Assembly: GCA_015062605.1 (NCBI GenBank)
Contig: SUUI01000001.1
Location: 62,001-126,000, forward strand
Length of the DNA: 64,000 bases
Reading direction: 5' to 3'
Origin: Eggerthellaceae bacterium
GTDB lineage: Bacteria; Actinomycetota; Coriobacteriia; Coriobacteriales; Eggerthellaceae
Below, one piece after another: positions 19,856 through 30,338 of the stretch; position 1 is the stretch's first letter, and each line of letters begins with the position of its first letter. Both the position numbers and the translations under genes were made by a program. The notes beneath the pieces were generated by a model. It worked only from the letters and a program-made list of their open reading frames with translations. It did not search any database and had not been told where the DNA came from.

Positions 19856-19953
19856 CCCGATGAGCATGAAACGAACTCGCAATCTATCCGTTTGAAAATC
19901 AATGGCGTTTTTAAGACGTCGGCAGTTTTTTGATGAAAGGTAGGGTGATTCCC

Positions 19954-21228
19954 TTGTACGACACAGGATCGACGGCGTTCATGATCGTCTGCACGATGCT
20001 CGTGCTGCTCATGACGCCGGGTCTCGCATTCTTCTATGGTGGTTTGTCGAGACGAAAGAACGTCATCAACACCATGATCATGGTTCTTAGCATCATCGCC
20101 GTTGTGGGCGTGATGTGGATTATCTGCGGCTGGTCGTTCGCCTATGGAGGCGACGGCTCATTCTCTTTCTTCGGCGGATTCGATCAGCTCGGTTGCCTTC
20201 CAGCCGTAAACGACATGCTCTCTGATACCGCGAACGTTCCTGAAGGTGCAACCTATCCGGGAATCATCGATATTGGTTTCCAAATGGCGTTCTGCATGAT
20301 CACCTGTGCCATCATCACGGGTGCAGTCGCCGGCCGTATGAAATACGGGGCGATGCTCCTCTTCATCGCTCTATGGGTGCCGCTTGTCTACTCGCCGCTT
20401 GCCCATATGGTGTGGGGAGGCGAAGGCTCTCTCATAGGCGATGTGATCGGTGCACTTGACTTCGCGGGTGGCGACGTCGTTCACATCAGCTCGGGCGTAA
20501 CGGGCCTCGTGCTCTGCATATTGCTCGGAGGACGTCGCGGTTTTGGCCTCATGAGCTACCGTGCGCACAACGTCCCCTTCGTTGCTCTCGGCGCTGCTCT
20601 TTTATGGTTCGGTTGGTTCGGCTTCAATGCCGGCTCGCAATTCGCAGCTGATGGTACCGCTGCACTTGCCCTGCTCAACACCATCGCAGCTTCTGCAGCT
20701 GGTATGTTCTCGTGGATTTGCGTAGAACGTGTGCGCGTGCGCAAGCCAACGCTTGTCGGTGCCTGCACGGGTCTTGTCGCCGGCCTTGTCGGCATCACGC
20801 CCGCTGCCGGCTTCGTTGAGCCATGGGCGGCGATCGTCATCGGCCTCGTAACCGCACCCTGCTGCTTTTTCGCCATCAGCGTTGCGAAACGCAAAATCGG
20901 CTACGATGACGCACTTGATGCGTTCGGCTGTCATTCGGTCGGCGGTGTTGTGGGCGGTCTGCTCACTGGCATATTCTGCGTTCCCGAGCTTTCGTGGACC
21001 GATTTCGGCGGATTATTTTATACAGGCGATCCATCGCTTCTCATCAGCCAATTCTTGGGCATCCTCGTAACGCTTGCATTCGTCATCGTCCTCGGTCTGG
21101 TCATCGGCCTCGTTGTGAAGGCGATCTATACCGGCTCTTTGCGCGTGAGCGAAGCCGACGAAGCGCGCGGCCTCGATGTTGCCGCACATGGCGAAAGCGC
21201 CTATCCGGCGTACCTTGGACTCGACTAA
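19954..21228 (+). CDS. amtB: Ammonium transporter AmtB
   Basis: Trimeric ammonium channel of the Amt/Rh family, about 424 residues with roughly 11 membrane helices. The N terminus TPGLAFFYGG is typical. DFAGGDVVHISSG (near 170) carries the signature Asp and first pore His, and CHSVGGVVGG the second. I prefer the TTG at 19954 (giving YDTGSTAF, the usual Amt beginning) because AAGGTAGGG precedes it; TTG/ATG at 19930-19933 has no ribosome site. The PII gene follows by 44 bases, the standard amtB-glnK pair in which PII plugs the channel when nitrogen is sufficient. Confidence 0.95.
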   Translation: MYDTGSTAFMIVCTMLVLLMTPGLAFFYGGLSRRKNVINTMIMVLSIIAVVGVMWIICGWSFAYGGDGSFSFFGGFDQLGCLPAVNDMLSDTANVPEGATYPGIIDIGFQMAFCMITCAIITGAVAGRMKYGAMLLFIALWVPLVYSPLAHMVWGGEGSLIGDVIGALDFAGGDVVHISSGVTGLVLCILLGGRRGFGLMSYRAHNVPFVALGAALLWFGWFGFNAGSQFAADGTAALALLNTIAASAAGMFSWICVERVRVRKPTLVGACTGLVAGLVGITPAAGFVEPWAAIVIGLVTAPCCFFAISVAKRKIGYDDALDAFGCHSVGGVVGGLLTGIFCVPELSWTDFGGLFYTGDPSLLISQFLGILVTLAFVIVLGLVIGLVVKAIYTGSLRVSEADEARGLDVAAHGESAYPAYLGLD

Positions 21229-21272
21229 AACTTGGATTGCCACAACATAGCGATGCGTTGTAAGGAGTATGT

Positions 21273-21611
21273 ATGAAAAGAATAAGCGCCATCGTGCGCC
21301 CAGAGAAACTCGAACCATTGAAAGAAGCTCTGTTTGCCGCAAGCGTATCTGGCATGACCATCACCCAAGTGATGGGCTGCGGCAATCAACATGGCTGGTC
21401 GGAATACTTCCGCGGTACCGAGGTGCTGTTGAACATGATTCCTAAGGTGAAATTCGAGCTCATCGTTGCTGATGAAACCGTTGACGGAATCGTTGGGCTC
21501 ATCTGCGATACCGCAGCAACGGGCGAGGTCGGAGACGGCAAGATATTCATCAGTCCCGTTGAGGAAGTCGTGCGCATTCGCACGCGCGAACACGGCGAAG
21601 CTGCGATTTAA
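21273..21611 (+). CDS. PII nitrogen regulatory protein (GlnB/GlnK)
   Basis: 112-residue trimeric sensor of ATP/ADP and 2-oxoglutarate that binds AmtB. Conserved: MKRISAIVRP, Gln39, Lys58 in NMIPKVK, the B-loop TGEVGDGKIF, and RIRTRE at the C terminus, so ligand binding is probably intact. The T-loop is unusual: residue 51, the tyrosine that is uridylylated or adenylylated in proteobacteria and streptomycetes, is valine (RGTEV). Control by covalent modification at that site is therefore impossible. AAGGAG lies 8 bases before the ATG. Confidence 0.95.
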   Translation: MKRISAIVRPEKLEPLKEALFAASVSGMTITQVMGCGNQHGWSEYFRGTEVLLNMIPKVKFELIVADETVDGIVGLICDTAATGEVGDGKIFISPVEEVVRIRTREHGEAAI

Positions 21612-21657
21612 AGATAACGACCTATGTATAAACGAATCTCCACACGATAAGGAGCAC

Positions 21658-23826
21658 ATGGGCATCAGGCTGAACATCGCACGATTAGCAGGCGCGGGAG
21701 CCACATGGGCGCTCAAGAACGTTTTTAGGCGCTCTGCGGGAAATTTCCCTGGCAAAATCGGCTTATACGCCGATCCCATGCTGATCGCCGATTTGCGAGA
21801 GCGCCTTCGCGAGGGTTCGATTGTCGTCGTTGGAACGAACGGCAAGACAACCGTTTCGAATCTTTTAGCCGATACGCTCGAAGCAGATGGCAAGACGGTC
21901 GTCTGCAACCGAACCGGTGCGAATCTCGATTCGGGAATCGCCACAGCGCTCTTGCGAACCAAAGGCGCTGACTGGGGTGTACTCGAGTGCGACGAGCTAT
22001 GGCTTGCACATGTGCTTCCGCAGCTTCTGCCTGATTATGTCGTGTTGTTGAACCTCTTCCGTGACCAACTCGACCGCTCAGGCGAAATCGACCATGTGCA
22101 GGGCTCGATTGTGCAGGCGCTTCAATCGAGCCCCAAAACAACGCTTATCTACAACGCTGATGACCCTTTGTGCCAAAAAGTTGCCAATGCCGTCGAGAAC
22201 GCATGCATCCCGTTCGGCATCGAGCAGGATCTAGGACTCGAGCAGAATACCGTAGCAGACGCGAGCATGTGCCAGCAGTGCGACTCGATACTCGAATACG
22301 AATGGCATCAATACGGGCAACTGGGGTCGTACAGATGCCCTTCGTGCGGATTCCACCGCATGCGCCCAATTCTCGCTGCAAACGACCTTGTTTCGTCAGT
22401 AGAGGGAATCTCGCTTACCGTGCAATACAGAGATGAGCAAACTCGGATCACTACCCCATTCACGGGGACGTACATGGCGTATAACGTGCTTGCCGTATGC
22501 GCGGCAGCTGCATGCGCAGGAACCCCTATTGCGCGTGTCAACGAAGCGCTACTTGCGTTCGACCCGCACAACGGACGCCTGCAACGGTATCGGATTGATG
22601 AACGAACCGTTCTTTTGAATCTCGCGAAGAATCCGACCGGATTCAATCAGAACCTCCGAATCATCTTAGAGACGCCCGGTCCGAAAGCCGTGGCATTCTT
22701 CATAAACGATAAAGAGGCCGATGGTCACGATGTATCGTGGCTATGGGACATTGATTTTCAAGAACTTGCGCAGGAAGACGAATTGGTTGCGTTTGCTGGC
22801 GGAATACGTTCCCACGATATGCAGGTACGTCTGAAATACGCCGGCATCGCAGCTCAGCTGGTCGACGATGCGGAAGATTTCCTCGCAAAAGCCCAGGCTG
22901 TTTCGCCGAACGTAAGTTTCTTCCTCATCGCAAATTACACGGCGCTTCCCCACGTGAAAGAGCAACTCGATAAACTCACGCATCTTCCTAAGCCGGCATC
23001 GGTGTCTTTCGCCGAAAGATATATAGAAGATAACGCTGAACCAAACGGCAAAACGAAAATGCACGGCACGAAGCTCACCATCGTTCACATGTACCCTGAG
23101 CTATTGAACCTCTATGGCGATGGCGGAAACGTCATCGTACTCGAAAGGCGGGCACGTGCGCGCGGAATCGATGTGGATATAGTTCGTGTCGAACATGGGC
23201 AGAAGGCAGATCTCACAACCGCCGATATCGTGTTCCTTGGAGGAGGCCCCGACCGGGAGCAGCATCTCGCATCCATAGATCTTCTCGCTCAGACTGAAGA
23301 TTTCCGCCGCTATGTGGAAGATGACGGGGTTCTGCTAGCCATTTGCGGAGGCTATCAAATGCTTGGGCAAGAGTGGTTGCTCGGCGATGAAAAGGTCCCT
23401 GGGTTAGGGCTTGCAAACATCGTGACCAAGCGCGCAGAAGGCGGATCGCACAACCGCCTCGTCGGCAACATCGCGCTGCATAGCCCCCTGGCAAGCTTAC
23501 CGGTTATCGGTTACGAGAACCACGCGGGACGCACTTTCCTGGGAGACGGCTGCGAAGCATTCGGCGCAGTCATCGGACATCACGGCAAGGGCAATAACGA
23601 TAAAGATGCAGCTGATGGTGTGCGTTTCCGTAATATCGTAGGCACGTATCTGCATGGACCTCTGCTTGCAAAGAACCCGGAAATAGCCGATTGGCTGATT
23701 GAGCGAGCACTAGAACGTAAAGCTGTAAAGGCTGGACTTTCAACGCAAGCTCTGCCACCGCTCGATGATGCAGTCGAACGAGCGGCTAACGCCTTTATGT
23801 GCTCCATGCTGAACGTGCACGTTTAA
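21658..23826 (+). CDS. MurT-GatD fusion: lipid II isoglutaminyl synthase in one chain
   Basis: Amidates the D-glutamate of lipid II to D-isoglutamine using glutamine. Elsewhere MurT and GatD are two subunits; here one 722-residue frame carries both. MurT part (1 to about 445): ATP loop GTNGKT (59-64), a Mur-ligase core, and a zinc ribbon with Cys205, Cys208, Cys227 and Cys230. GatD part (about 465-722): CobB/CobQ-type glutaminase with nucleophile Cys563 in AICGGYQ and GTYLHGP near the end. The ATG at 21658 has AAGGAG 5 bases upstream; the frame is open further left but overlaps the PII gene. It follows PII by 46 bases and probably belongs to the amtB operon. Confidence 0.93.
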   Translation: MGIRLNIARLAGAGATWALKNVFRRSAGNFPGKIGLYADPMLIADLRERLREGSIVVVGTNGKTTVSNLLADTLEADGKTVVCNRTGANLDSGIATALLRTKGADWGVLECDELWLAHVLPQLLPDYVVLLNLFRDQLDRSGEIDHVQGSIVQALQSSPKTTLIYNADDPLCQKVANAVENACIPFGIEQDLGLEQNTVADASMCQQCDSILEYEWHQYGQLGSYRCPSCGFHRMRPILAANDLVSSVEGISLTVQYRDEQTRITTPFTGTYMAYNVLAVCAAAACAGTPIARVNEALLAFDPHNGRLQRYRIDERTVLLNLAKNPTGFNQNLRIILETPGPKAVAFFINDKEADGHDVSWLWDIDFQELAQEDELVAFAGGIRSHDMQVRLKYAGIAAQLVDDAEDFLAKAQAVSPNVSFFLIANYTALPHVKEQLDKLTHLPKPASVSFAERYIEDNAEPNGKTKMHGTKLTIVHMYPELLNLYGDGGNVIVLERRARARGIDVDIVRVEHGQKADLTTADIVFLGGGPDREQHLASIDLLAQTEDFRRYVEDDGVLLAICGGYQMLGQEWLLGDEKVPGLGLANIVTKRAEGGSHNRLVGNIALHSPLASLPVIGYENHAGRTFLGDGCEAFGAVIGHHGKGNNDKDAADGVRFRNIVGTYLHGPLLAKNPEIADWLIERALERKAVKAGLSTQALPPLDDAVERAANAFMCSMLNVHV

Positions 23827-23829
23827 CGG

Positions 23830-25689
<1,860 letters not shown>

Positions 25690-25767
25690 ATAAAACTCCA
25701 TTCTGATACGTTTATCTGCATAAACGCACGCCAACGCGTTCAAAACCCTCTTTCGGATGCTTCTACG

Positions 25768-28700
25768 CTACCGCCTCGGCAAGTCTTGAAGCGCCACTAC
25801 ATCCAAGCCGTCGTTTTTAGCCACCTCCATAGCGGCAGCAAGCGCCTGGGCGGCAGCGATAGTCGTCGCATATGTTACGCCATACCGCACAGCTGCGAGG
25901 CGAAGCGCATAACCATCGCCACGCGAACCATGACCGAACGGCGTGTTAATCATCAGTTTTATCTCCCCGTCGGCAATCATGTCGACAATGCTCGAATGGC
26001 CTTCGCCAACCTTGCCGACCTTGCGGCATGGAATGCCCGAGGAAGCAAGGGTCTTAGCCGTTCCACCTGTACTCACGATGTCGAAACCAAGACGCGCGAA
26101 ATCGCGTGCGATAGATGCAATCGAGCGCTTATCGCGATCGGCAACGCTGATGAACACCGTCCCCGATGTGGGCAACTCATAGGAAATCGCTAGTTGCGTC
26201 TTCGCGTACGCCGCGGGAAACGCCGATGCGATTCCCATCACTTCGCCCGTTGATTTCATCTCGGGGCCGAGTACGACGTCTGAACCCGGGAACCGACCGA
26301 ACGGCAAAACTGCTTCCTTAACAGCACAATAGCCCAGATTGAGATCGTCAGGTGGTAACTCGATATCAGAAAGGCGCTCCCCCGCCATGACACGCGTTGC
26401 AACCTTTGCAAGCGGCACACCCGTCGCCTTGGAAACGAACGGTACGGTACGGCTTGCGCGAGGATTCGCCTCGATAACGTAAACATTCTGATCCTTCACG
26501 GCAAATTGGATGTTGAGCAGGCCGTGTACGCCGATGGCAAGCGACAAACGCCATGCGATGTCACGGAAGCGCGCAATTAACGCATCTGACAATGAAAACG
26601 GAGGGATGCAGCAAGCAGAATCCCCCGAATGGATGCCTGCTTCTTCGATGTGCTCCATCACACCGCCGATGTAGACGTCCTCACCATCGCAGACGCAATC
26701 AAGGTCGACTTCTATCGCCGATTCGAGGAATTTATCGAGATATACCGGGTGATCCGGCGAAATCTTCGCCGCCTCTCCCATGTACTTGCGAAGCTGCGCC
26801 GCATCGTACACGATTGCCATGCCGCGTCCACCAAGCACGTAGCTCGGACGGACCAGAAGCGGGAAGCCGATGCGTGCGGCAACTCGTTCGGCATCATCGA
26901 GTGTCGTCGCATCGCCCGCAGGCGGATACGCGATACCCAATCCATCGAGCAGCGCTGCGAATCTATCGCGATCCTCGGCAAGGTCAATCGCGTCAGCTCC
27001 GGTTCCCAAAAGAGGAACGCCAGCTTCTTCAAGCGCGCGGGCGAGCTTTAGTGGCGTCTGCCCGCCCAAGGTCGCGACCACGCCTTCAGGACGTTCGGCA
27101 TCGATGATATCCATGACGTCCTCAAAAGTCAGCGGCTCGAAATACAGTTTGTCGGACGTATCGTAATCCGTTGAAACCGTCTCCGGGTTGCAGTTCACCA
27201 TGATGGTTTCCCAACCCGCCTCCTTCAAGGCATAGCTTGCATGCACGCAGCAATAGTCGAACTCGATGCCTTGACCGATACGGTTAGGGCCAGCACCTAA
27301 GATGAGCGCCTTAGGCTTCCCGTTCGAATCCGCTTTGCTGTTCTGCGTACCGATTTCGGATTCGTCGGCATCGTAGGTTTTATAGTGGTACGCCGTGCCG
27401 CTTTCGAATTCCGCCGCGCACGTGTCGACGGTTTTGAATGCCGGGGTAACCCCAAGCGCCTTGCGGCGTGTACGCACGACGATCTCCGTCGAATTCGTGA
27501 GGAAGGCGATTTGCACATCGGATAGCCCATAGCGTTTCGCAATGCGGAATGCCTCGGCATCCATGTCATCGATGCGCACGCCGCGCAGAGCCTCTTGCAC
27601 GGCGACGATGTCGGCCATACGATCCAAGAAGAAACGATCGATGCCTGTAAGCTCGTGTATTTCGGCAGCCGTCCAACCGCAGCGCAGCGCGCATCCAACG
27701 TAGACGATTCGATCGCAAGTTGGACGCGCAAGCAGGCCAGCGTAACCCTCCTTTGTCTCGGATGCGCGCACATGTCCGTCAACGCCTAAGCCTGCGCGCC
27801 CGTTCTCGAGCGAGCGCAACGCCTTGCCGAGCGCCTCTTCGAACGTACGGCCGATCGCCATGACCTCGCCGACCGCCTTCATGCGCGTCGAAAGCGTATC
27901 GTCGGAGTCCTTGAATTTCTCGAATGCGAAGCGCGGTGCTTTAACCACGCAATAGTCGATGCTCGGTTCGAAGCATGCGGATGTGCTTCCTGTGATGTCG
28001 TTAACGATTTCAGGAAGTGTATAGCCGACTGCCAGGCGCGCTGCAACCTTCGCAATGGGAAAGCCCGTCGCCTTCGAAGCAAGAGCGGATGATCGGGAAA
28101 CGCGTGGGTTCATCTCGATGATGACCATACGCCCATCATCCGGGTTCACGGCGAACTGAACGTTCGATCCACCGGTTTGCACACCCACTTTCTCGAGGAC
28201 GGCAAGTGACGCTGTGCGCATGCGCTGGTATTCGATATCGGAAAGCGTTTGTGCGGGCGCAACCGTGATCGAGTCACCTGTGTGCACACCCATGGGATCG
28301 AGATTCTCGATCGAGCACACGACGATGCCGTTACCAGCACGGTCGCGTACGACTTCCATCTCGAATTCCTTCCAACCCTCGATGCTCTCCTCGACAAGCA
28401 CTTCATTCGCAGGAGAAAGCTCAAGGCCTTGCGAAACGATTAAGGCAAGCTCGTCATCGTTGTGGGCGATACCTCCGCCAGCGCCACCCAACGTGTATGA
28501 AGGACGCAAGACAACAGGGAAACCGATGCGCGCGACGATCTTCCGGGCATCGTCGACTGAATACGCATAACCCGACTTCGCCGTTGCGATGCCGAGCTCG
28601 GACATGCATTCATTGAAAAGCTTGCGCTCCTCGCCTTTCTGTATGGTCTCGACATCGCAGCCGATCATCTCAACGCCGAAACGATCGAGCGCACCGCGCA

Positions 28701-29010
28701 TCGCCAATTCAACGGCGGCATTGAGCGCAGTCTGCCCTCCAAGCGTTGGAAGGAGCGCATCGGGATGTTCCTTCGCAATGATCTTCTCGATGAATTCCGC
28801 TGTAATCGGTTCGACGTACGTGCGATCGGCTAACTCGGGATCGGTCATGATGGTAGCAGGATTGCTGTTCACGAGGATGACACGATAGCCCTCCTCGCGC
28901 AGAACCTTGCATGCCTGGGCGCCCGAATAGTCGAATTCGCATGCCTGGCCGATCACGATTGGGCCAGACCCGATAACGAGAATGCTTTCGATGTCAGTTC
29001 TTTTCGGCAT
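25768..29010 (-). CDS. carB: Carbamoyl-phosphate synthase, large subunit
   Basis: Joins bicarbonate, ATP and the ammonia tunnelled from CarA to make carbamoyl phosphate for pyrimidines and arginine. About 1080 residues with the internal duplication: two ATP-grasp halves ([15 protein letters not shown] near 245 and [12 protein letters not shown] near 790), the oligomerisation domain between them, and an MGS-like allosteric domain after about 935. Start at ATG 29010 ([17 protein letters not shown]), two bases after the carA stop, with GGAGG inside the end of carA. Confidence 0.97.
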
Positions 29011-29012
29011 GA

Positions 29013-30338
29013 TCAGAACCTCCATCCTTCCAAGCGGTCGCGTGCGATATCGATATCGAGAAAGTCTTTCTCGCCATCCATAAGGCGCGAGAACGCGGTG
29101 AACAGATAATGCGAATCCACAGGCCCTGGGTTTGCCTCCGGATGATATTGAACGGAAAAAGCAGGGATATCCGTGAACGCGATACCCTCTGCAGTACCAT
29201 CATTGAGATTCACATGCGTAAGCCGAATTCCTCCGAAGCGTTTATTGGCAACAAGGGGTGCGGCGTGCTTTTCGTTCCAATATCGTAAATCGCTTTGATG
29301 CTCGCCATTGCCGCCGCTTTGCTCGGAAACGAACGGACCGAGACTTTGGAACACAAGATTGAATCCATGGTTCTGAGCGGTGATTTCAACACGGCCCGTC
29401 AGCAAGTTCACTACAGGATGATTACCACCGTGATGACCGAACTTGAGCTTCTCGATTTGCGCTCCCGCAGCCTTGCAGATCATCTGATGTCCCATGCAAA
29501 TACCGAATACAGGAAGCTCGCCGAGCAATTTGCCCACTTGCTCATAGGTGCCCGCAACCACATCGGGATCCCCAGGACCGTTAGAGACGAACACGCCATC
29601 GGGAGACATCGCGAGAACATCACTCGCAGGCGTATCCCACGGGACGACCGTCACTTCGCACCCCACGCGCACAAGTCCCTCGAGGATAGAGCGCTTTACT
29701 CCGCAGTCGTAGGCGACTACGCGATGCGAAACCTCCTTCGCCGAAGAGAGCGCGAATGACTTCTCACTCACAAGGTCGGCAAAACCGAACGAATATGGCT
29801 CGTCGCACGAAACGGATTGCACGAGGTTGATGCCGACGATGGAAGGACTCGCCTTCACTTTCTTTAACAGGCTTGTGCGATCGATATCGATAGTAGAAAT
29901 GACCGCACGCATCGCGCCGAAATCGCGCACATGGCGCACAAGCGCCCTTGTGTCGATTCCCTCGATGGCGACCACGCCCTCGCGTTCAAGGTATTCAGGC
30001 AAGCTAAGCTCGCTTCGCCAATTCGATGGCGTATAACACATGTCACGTACCACGAGACCGCGCAGCACGGGCCGCGAAGCTTGCGCGTCATCTTCCCGCA
30101 CTCCGTAGTTTCCGATTTGCGGATATGTCATCGTCACGATTTGCCCAGCATAGCTTGGATCGGTGATGACTTCGAAATAGCCTTCGAGGGAGGTATTAAA
30201 GCAGATCTCTCCGAAAGCCTCACCTTCTGCTCCACATGAAATCCCGCGATAGGCCGTACCGTCTTCCAACATGAGCAGGGCTTCTTTTATCGGCGGTTTC
30301 GATGTCGCCGCCAACATGCGTTCTGAAAGGTCACTCAT
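29013..30338 (-). CDS. carA: Carbamoyl-phosphate synthase, small (glutaminase) subunit
   Basis: Class I glutamine amidotransferase that supplies ammonia to CarB. 441 residues, longer than the usual ~380: about 20 extra residues at the N terminus and a Ser/Gly-rich insert near 345. CPSase_sm_chain domain (20-~155), then GATase with the nucleophile in FGICMGHQM and the His-Glu pair in YHPEANPGP. The ATG at 30338 overlaps purF by 8 bases. Confidence 0.96.

Follow-up and report, generated by a model that had tools for sequence, protein, structure and literature searches.

MurT/GatD is essential and a drug target in several Gram-positive bacteria. Carbamoyl phosphate synthetase, in which the synthase has an ATP-grasp fold, is unrelated to it in synthase fold and substrate. 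The types I and II of the latter enzyme have an ATP-dependent synthase with the glutaminase as a subunit or fused, and type I uses ammonia only (PMC6022934). In Staphylococcus aureus, MurT D349 is the synthase member of a catalytic triad shared with GatD (PMC6113224), GatD G60 is an oxyanion-hole residue (PMC5871853), and the Cys4 zinc ribbon is said to occur in only a subset of MurT (PMC6113224). The S. aureus GatD C94G alteration abolished glutamine-dependent amidation, whereas ammonia-dependent amidation by MurT/GatD at pH 8.5 was unaffected; MurT by itself showed no activity with any donor (PMC3266927). No report of a MurT-GatD fusion or of natural copies lacking the GatD cysteine was found in a literature search with partial coverage (MurT/GatD, Coriobacteria, Eggerthella and ammonia-dependent amidation), and the fusion is unmentioned in the operon-distribution section of PMC6085368.

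Compared with MurT/GatD of S. aureus, Streptococcus pneumoniae and S. pyogenes, the gene described here, from a 64,000-nucleotide stretch of Eggerthellaceae DNA (the window), shares both domains and the zinc ribbon but encodes one chain where theirs are two, at approximately 30-40% identity. It very probably encodes a single-chain, glutamine-dependent lipid II isoglutaminyl synthase, a fusion with unchanged chemistry that is a trait of the family.

The fused murT-gatD gene

The features of the gene are as follows.

21649..21654, + strand: AAGGAG Shine-Dalgarno-like site of the fused murT-gatD, read off the sequence
21658..23826, + strand: fused murT-gatD gene, 722 codons plus stop, ATG at 21658
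21658..22977, + strand: MurT half, residues 1-440 (Pfam; PDB 7q8e chain A, E 2.9e-63)
22270..22347, + strand: Cys4 zinc-ribbon insertion, C205/C208/C227/C230 (alignment to S. aureus C202/205/224/226)
22729..22731, + strand: D358, equivalent of S. aureus MurT D349 (alignment)
22978..23064, + strand: linker, about residues 441-469 (poor conservation, relaxed; lower pLDDT)
23065..23823, + strand: GatD half, residues 470-722 (Pfam; PDB 5n9m, E 4.3e-47; VIA-align to 9sqj)
23344..23346, + strand: C563, glutaminase nucleophile, codon TGC (alignment)
23653..23655, + strand: H666, equivalent of GatD H189 (alignment)

The original prediction was that MurT and GatD form one 722-residue chain with both active sites intact, and both parts of it were borne out. 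The frame is open from 21658 to 23826 and holds three Pfam domains in order, all above their gathering scores: Mur_ligase_M, the Mur ligase middle domain (PF08245, residues 57-284, 60.0 bits), MurT_C (PF08353, residues 322-430, 104 bits) and GATase_3, the GatD-type class I glutaminase domain (PF07685, residues 474-673, 115.4 bits). In the alignment with S. aureus MurT/GatD (locus L084), MurT E108, D349 and zinc cysteines 202/205/224/226 correspond to E110, D358 and 205/208/227/230 of the fused protein, and GatD C94, R128 and H189 to C563, R600 and H666. The S. aureus triad C94-H189-D349 is thereby matched together with E108 and R128, all ten residues checked are kept, and GTNGKT, the four zinc cysteines and Cys563 had been predicted correctly; the zinc ribbon is read here from its cysteines in the sequence. 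The best PDB sequence matches are the S. aureus MurT and GatD entries listed above, 7q8e and 5n9m. The NCBIfam equivalogs NF045635 (MurT, 224.1 of 800 bits) and NF045636 (GatD, 173.9 of 400 bits) scored so far under their cut-offs that the NCBI naming rule would not give MurT/GatD names, and these strict cut-offs settle NCBI naming and say nothing on mechanism.

The structure prediction that had been proposed as a check was made with AlphaFold2 on 75 aligned fused proteins and gave two confident domains (pLDDT 91.3, pTM 0.89), each matched to solved MurT and GatD structures, with the lowest pLDDT in the linker (blocks of 67-74) and a few loops. The top VIA-align matches for GatD were S. pyogenes 9sqj (Z 33.6), S. 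pneumoniae 6fqb (Z 32.6) and S. aureus 6h5e (Z 32.5), and the top match for MurT was S. aureus 6gs2 (Z 32.0, rmsd 7.9). The rmsd of the model to S. aureus MurT is about 8 Å against 4.2-4.7 Å to streptococcal MurT, and this larger value fits a different opening of the two domains of the S. aureus protein. Judged from the published MurT/GatD structures and the confident two-domain model, the fused protein would have a built-in ammonia path, and the natural single-chain form would be a convenient object for structural and channelling work.

Selection on the linker differs from that on the domains. For the three copies within the genus, linker dN/dS was 0.22-0.73 against 0.02-0.14 in both domains (MurT half 0.07-0.14 and GatD half 0.02-0.03 in the intact fused copy), and over all pairs tested it was about 0.2-0.8, with one pair saturated, against 0.02-0.23 in the domains.

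In the mechanism proposed, the C-terminal GatD domain would hydrolyse glutamine by means of C563 and H666 with D358 of the MurT domain assisting, and the ammonia would pass to the MurT domain, which would activate the alpha-carboxyl of lipid II D-Glu with ATP and then amidate it. The fusion would hold the halves at 1:1 by a flexible linker and leave the chemistry unchanged. A target other than the D-Glu of lipid II, such as a different carboxylate, or a reaction with a different amine, is improbable. The identity to characterised enzymes is just about 30-40%, and the order also harbours diverged MurT-GatD pairs in which the whole shared triad is lost, so that the chemistry of the family is not uniform; however, every tested residue tied to glutaminase activity and lipid II amidation is kept in the window protein, and the solved structures closest to it are the three complexes that amidate lipid II. 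The likely function is thus to amidate lipid II D-Glu at the expense of glutamine.

One product or two

Still less probable is that the frame, fused in the DNA, yields two proteins, either because translation also starts inside it near codon 468 or because the linker is cut. An in-frame ATG lies at codon 468 right before the GatD half, the linker is variable and relaxed, and two separate genes are found in the related genomes G117 and G118 and in genus g63. The anti-Shine-Dalgarno pairing at the in-frame starts near the junction is however only -1.1 kcal/mol at this ATG and -1.4 kcal/mol at the GTG of codon 449. Separate gatD genes, of which 33 were measured, have a median of -9.6 kcal/mol, and an internal product is therefore unlikely for the window gene. 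The internal ribosome site against which the original prediction had cautioned thus has no apparent counterpart in the linker, and two products from one frame were rejected for want of an internal start. For the linker region of 111 fused genes the median was -4.0 kcal/mol, and 23 of these genes reach -6 kcal/mol or better, so a few relatives could differ in this respect. As a single chain, the halves are at a fixed 1:1 ratio provided that the linker stays uncut.

Distribution and history of the fusion

With the window protein as query, 124 of 138 family genomes gave a match at E <= 1e-30. The search for the same architecture in other genomes, also proposed at the outset, found it in abundance: among the 117 family genomes in which loci were read, MurT and GatD were fused in 99 and separate in 13, the remaining five being unscored at a contig end or where only one half was found. 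A chance event or assembly artefact was rejected since 99 of the 117 have the same fusion. The fusion is a common trait of the Eggerthellaceae, named genera with it including Gordonibacter, Berryella, Adlercreutzia, Ellagibacter, Senegalimassilia and Slackia, and it also evolved in sister families. The two named records closest to the window protein, at 90% and 94% identity, come from metagenome-assembled genomes of gut Eggerthellaceae, one from goat jejunum.

In the sample of the order (197 genomes), fusions also occurred in family f10 (genera g51, g75 and g92) and family f4 (g46, and G276 of g98), where eleven fusion loci were examined, either in detail or at the level of the open frame. In the sample of the phylum (149 genomes), the matches outside the order that looked continuous (G348, G379 and G389) were two genes each. 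Matches in a candidate phylum and in Lachnospiraceae were likewise two genes wherever both halves were complete, the MurT of L234 being cut. A plasmid search yielded S. aureus and Priestia references but no fusion, the one hit that looked single (H4) consisting of two open reading frames.

A tree of 65 rows from the order requires at least five changes between the fused and the separate label. Rooted on the rows from outside the order, from which we infer the direction, the tree reads as about three fusions and two re-splits. Separate genes are found within the same family in genera g63 and g61.

At two loci of g61, nested among fused relatives (L171 in G117 and L172 in G118), a change of frame within the linker divides MurT from GatD, and the frames overlap or nearly overlap, which is possibly a re-split or a frameshift site. 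In G139 (L087/L197) the fused frame carries a TGA in the GatD half, near the end, giving pieces of 663 and 88 residues, as a sequencing error, a pseudogene or read-through.

Neighbouring nitrogen genes

Two genes precede the fused gene on the same strand.

19930..21228, + strand: amtB, ammonium transporter (Pfam, TIGR00836), first gene of a likely amtB-glnK-murTgatD operon
21273..21611, + strand: glnK, PII nitrogen regulator (Pfam P-II), 46 bases upstream of murT-gatD

In adjoining amtB-glnK the fused gene is unlike MurT/GatD of S. aureus, S. pneumoniae and S. pyogenes. Where loci were long enough, amtB-glnK was also found next to the intact copy in the other two genus genomes and in the sister genera g64 and g65; in most other family genera no amtB lay within the stretch read, many stretches being short. 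In the genus of the window the three genes are probably co-transcribed, and such neighbours suggest a link between amidation of the wall and the nitrogen status of this lineage. Downstream of murT-gatD, glmS and carB lie on the opposite strand (Pfam). Nitrogen uptake and glutamine-using genes (amtB, glnK, fused murT-gatD, glmS and carB) are thereby contiguous from 19930 to 29025 of the window.

Copies without the glutaminase nucleophile

The genome of the window holds a second fused copy (P0002; G000:C12:59732-62023, L034:9733-12027) of 764 residues and 48% identity to the window protein. The alignment shows P0002 with Asp in place of the nucleophile Cys, as in all three genomes of the genus, and with the residues of the synthase, the zinc cysteines, Arg and His retained. 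P0002 is thus a relative of MurT/GatD and, by its nucleophile position, not predicted to be a glutaminase. In its model (pLDDT 86.4, pTM 0.85) the two folds are preserved and the linker, at 467-504, is disordered; no amtB was present within the 16 kb read around this copy. Contamination was rejected as the source of this copy, which is present in three of three genus genomes with shared flanks and has a GC content of 0.545, equal to the 0.545 of the window; synteny of the flanks is conserved in the genus, two of the genomes sharing 10.5 kb and 3.0 kb at 91-92%.

Further fused copies lacking the cysteine were found in genus g55 (Asp in G083, G086, G087 and G088, Gly in G085), in G012 (Gly, together with His to Gln) and in G150 (Asn). 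These copies occupy four places in the family tree. Once the columns of the nucleophile, the oxyanion and the histidine had been masked, the tree required four changes for five representative rows, and a single shared origin was rejected by a one-clade constraint (p-AU 0.0003) on these five of the ten copies, a group chosen after an earlier tree had been seen. By these trees the nucleophile was lost at least four times in the family. Sequencing error was rejected as the cause of Cys to Asp, which needs two base changes; GAC or GAT stands in seven of the ten copies listed.

The Cys-less copy is the only one found in five genomes (G012, G083, G085, G086 and G087), the best of which is G086 (96% complete, 10 contigs). 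These five hold no second MurT_C protein and no other GatD-like match to the window protein, their remaining GATase_3 matches being, by length, cobyrinate/cobyrate synthase-like or small and PdxT- or HisH-sized. Several copies are present in each of G088 (70% complete) and G150 (77% complete), which are possibly mixed bins, and G084 of g55 (94% complete) has no MurT_C protein at all.

The changes in nine Cys-less copies were counted over the columns conserved at 97% or more in 66 active copies. Between 4 and 13 of the 55 conserved GatD columns are altered, against 2-7 of the 105 conserved MurT columns, indicating that the GatD half is partly relaxed. The nucleophile is altered in nine of nine and G529, the equivalent of S. 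aureus G60, in eight of nine, while His666 is kept in eight of nine and Arg600 in all nine, a pattern that points to loss aimed at glutamine hydrolysis. In five pairs analysed by a simple counting method at high dS, dN/dS of the Cys-less GatD half was 0.05-0.10 in the genus (three pairs) and 0.10-0.18 in g55 (two pairs), similar to the 0.02-0.23 of active copies, so that this half is still under purifying selection in the pairs tested.

Ammonia as a proposed nitrogen source

The cysteine absent from the S. aureus C94G mutant is also absent from the natural copies, where Asp, Gly or Asn replaces it; their synthase residues are kept, and the natural Cys to Gly copy matches the mutant. These copies differ from the laboratory mutant in being fused, in showing purifying selection where pairs were tested, and usually also in having the oxyanion glycine replaced. 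Type I carbamoyl phosphate synthetase is also without the glutaminase cysteine. Because the C94G mutant kept ammonia-dependent activity, the Cys-less copies are by analogy probably ammonia-dependent lipid II amidases, in which the inactive GatD half would be kept because MurT needs a partner. The main weakness of this reading is that the S. aureus enzyme used ammonia at pH 8.5 only and not at 7.5 (PMC3266927), and use of a different amine as the acceptor nucleophile or a role as a regulatory pseudoenzyme are rival readings of the Cys-less copies.

A broader proposal is put forward tentatively, as possible and somewhat short of probable, in which ammonia-only fused lipid II amidases with a structural, Cys-less GatD would make up a second class in the Eggerthellaceae that arose at least four times. 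In the genome of the window this class would work beside the glutamine-using copy and so let the cell switch the nitrogen source of wall amidation. If true, at least five relatives rely on the ammonia-using class as the only enzyme of its kind found. The repeated loss of the nucleophile with the rest of the domain under selection also offers a direct test of why MurT needs GatD even with an ammonia donor, which the S. aureus work of 2012 left as a question (PMC3266927).

Two MurT-like genes (L081 and L082) have D349 replaced by Tyr or Thr, with no GatD match in the stretch read. A diverged MurT-GatD family, fused or separate, was also observed in genomes of the order (L258-L280; families f10, f4 and f5) and at L076 and L237. 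It lacks the shared triad, with D349 changed to Tyr, Phe or Asn, Cys to Gly (once His) and His mostly to Ile or Leu, around a TGN motif; L258-L280 retain E108 and R128 as well as the zinc cysteines. This diverged family may use ammonia or another amine, and it is the only form in several genomes, such as G052 and G059.
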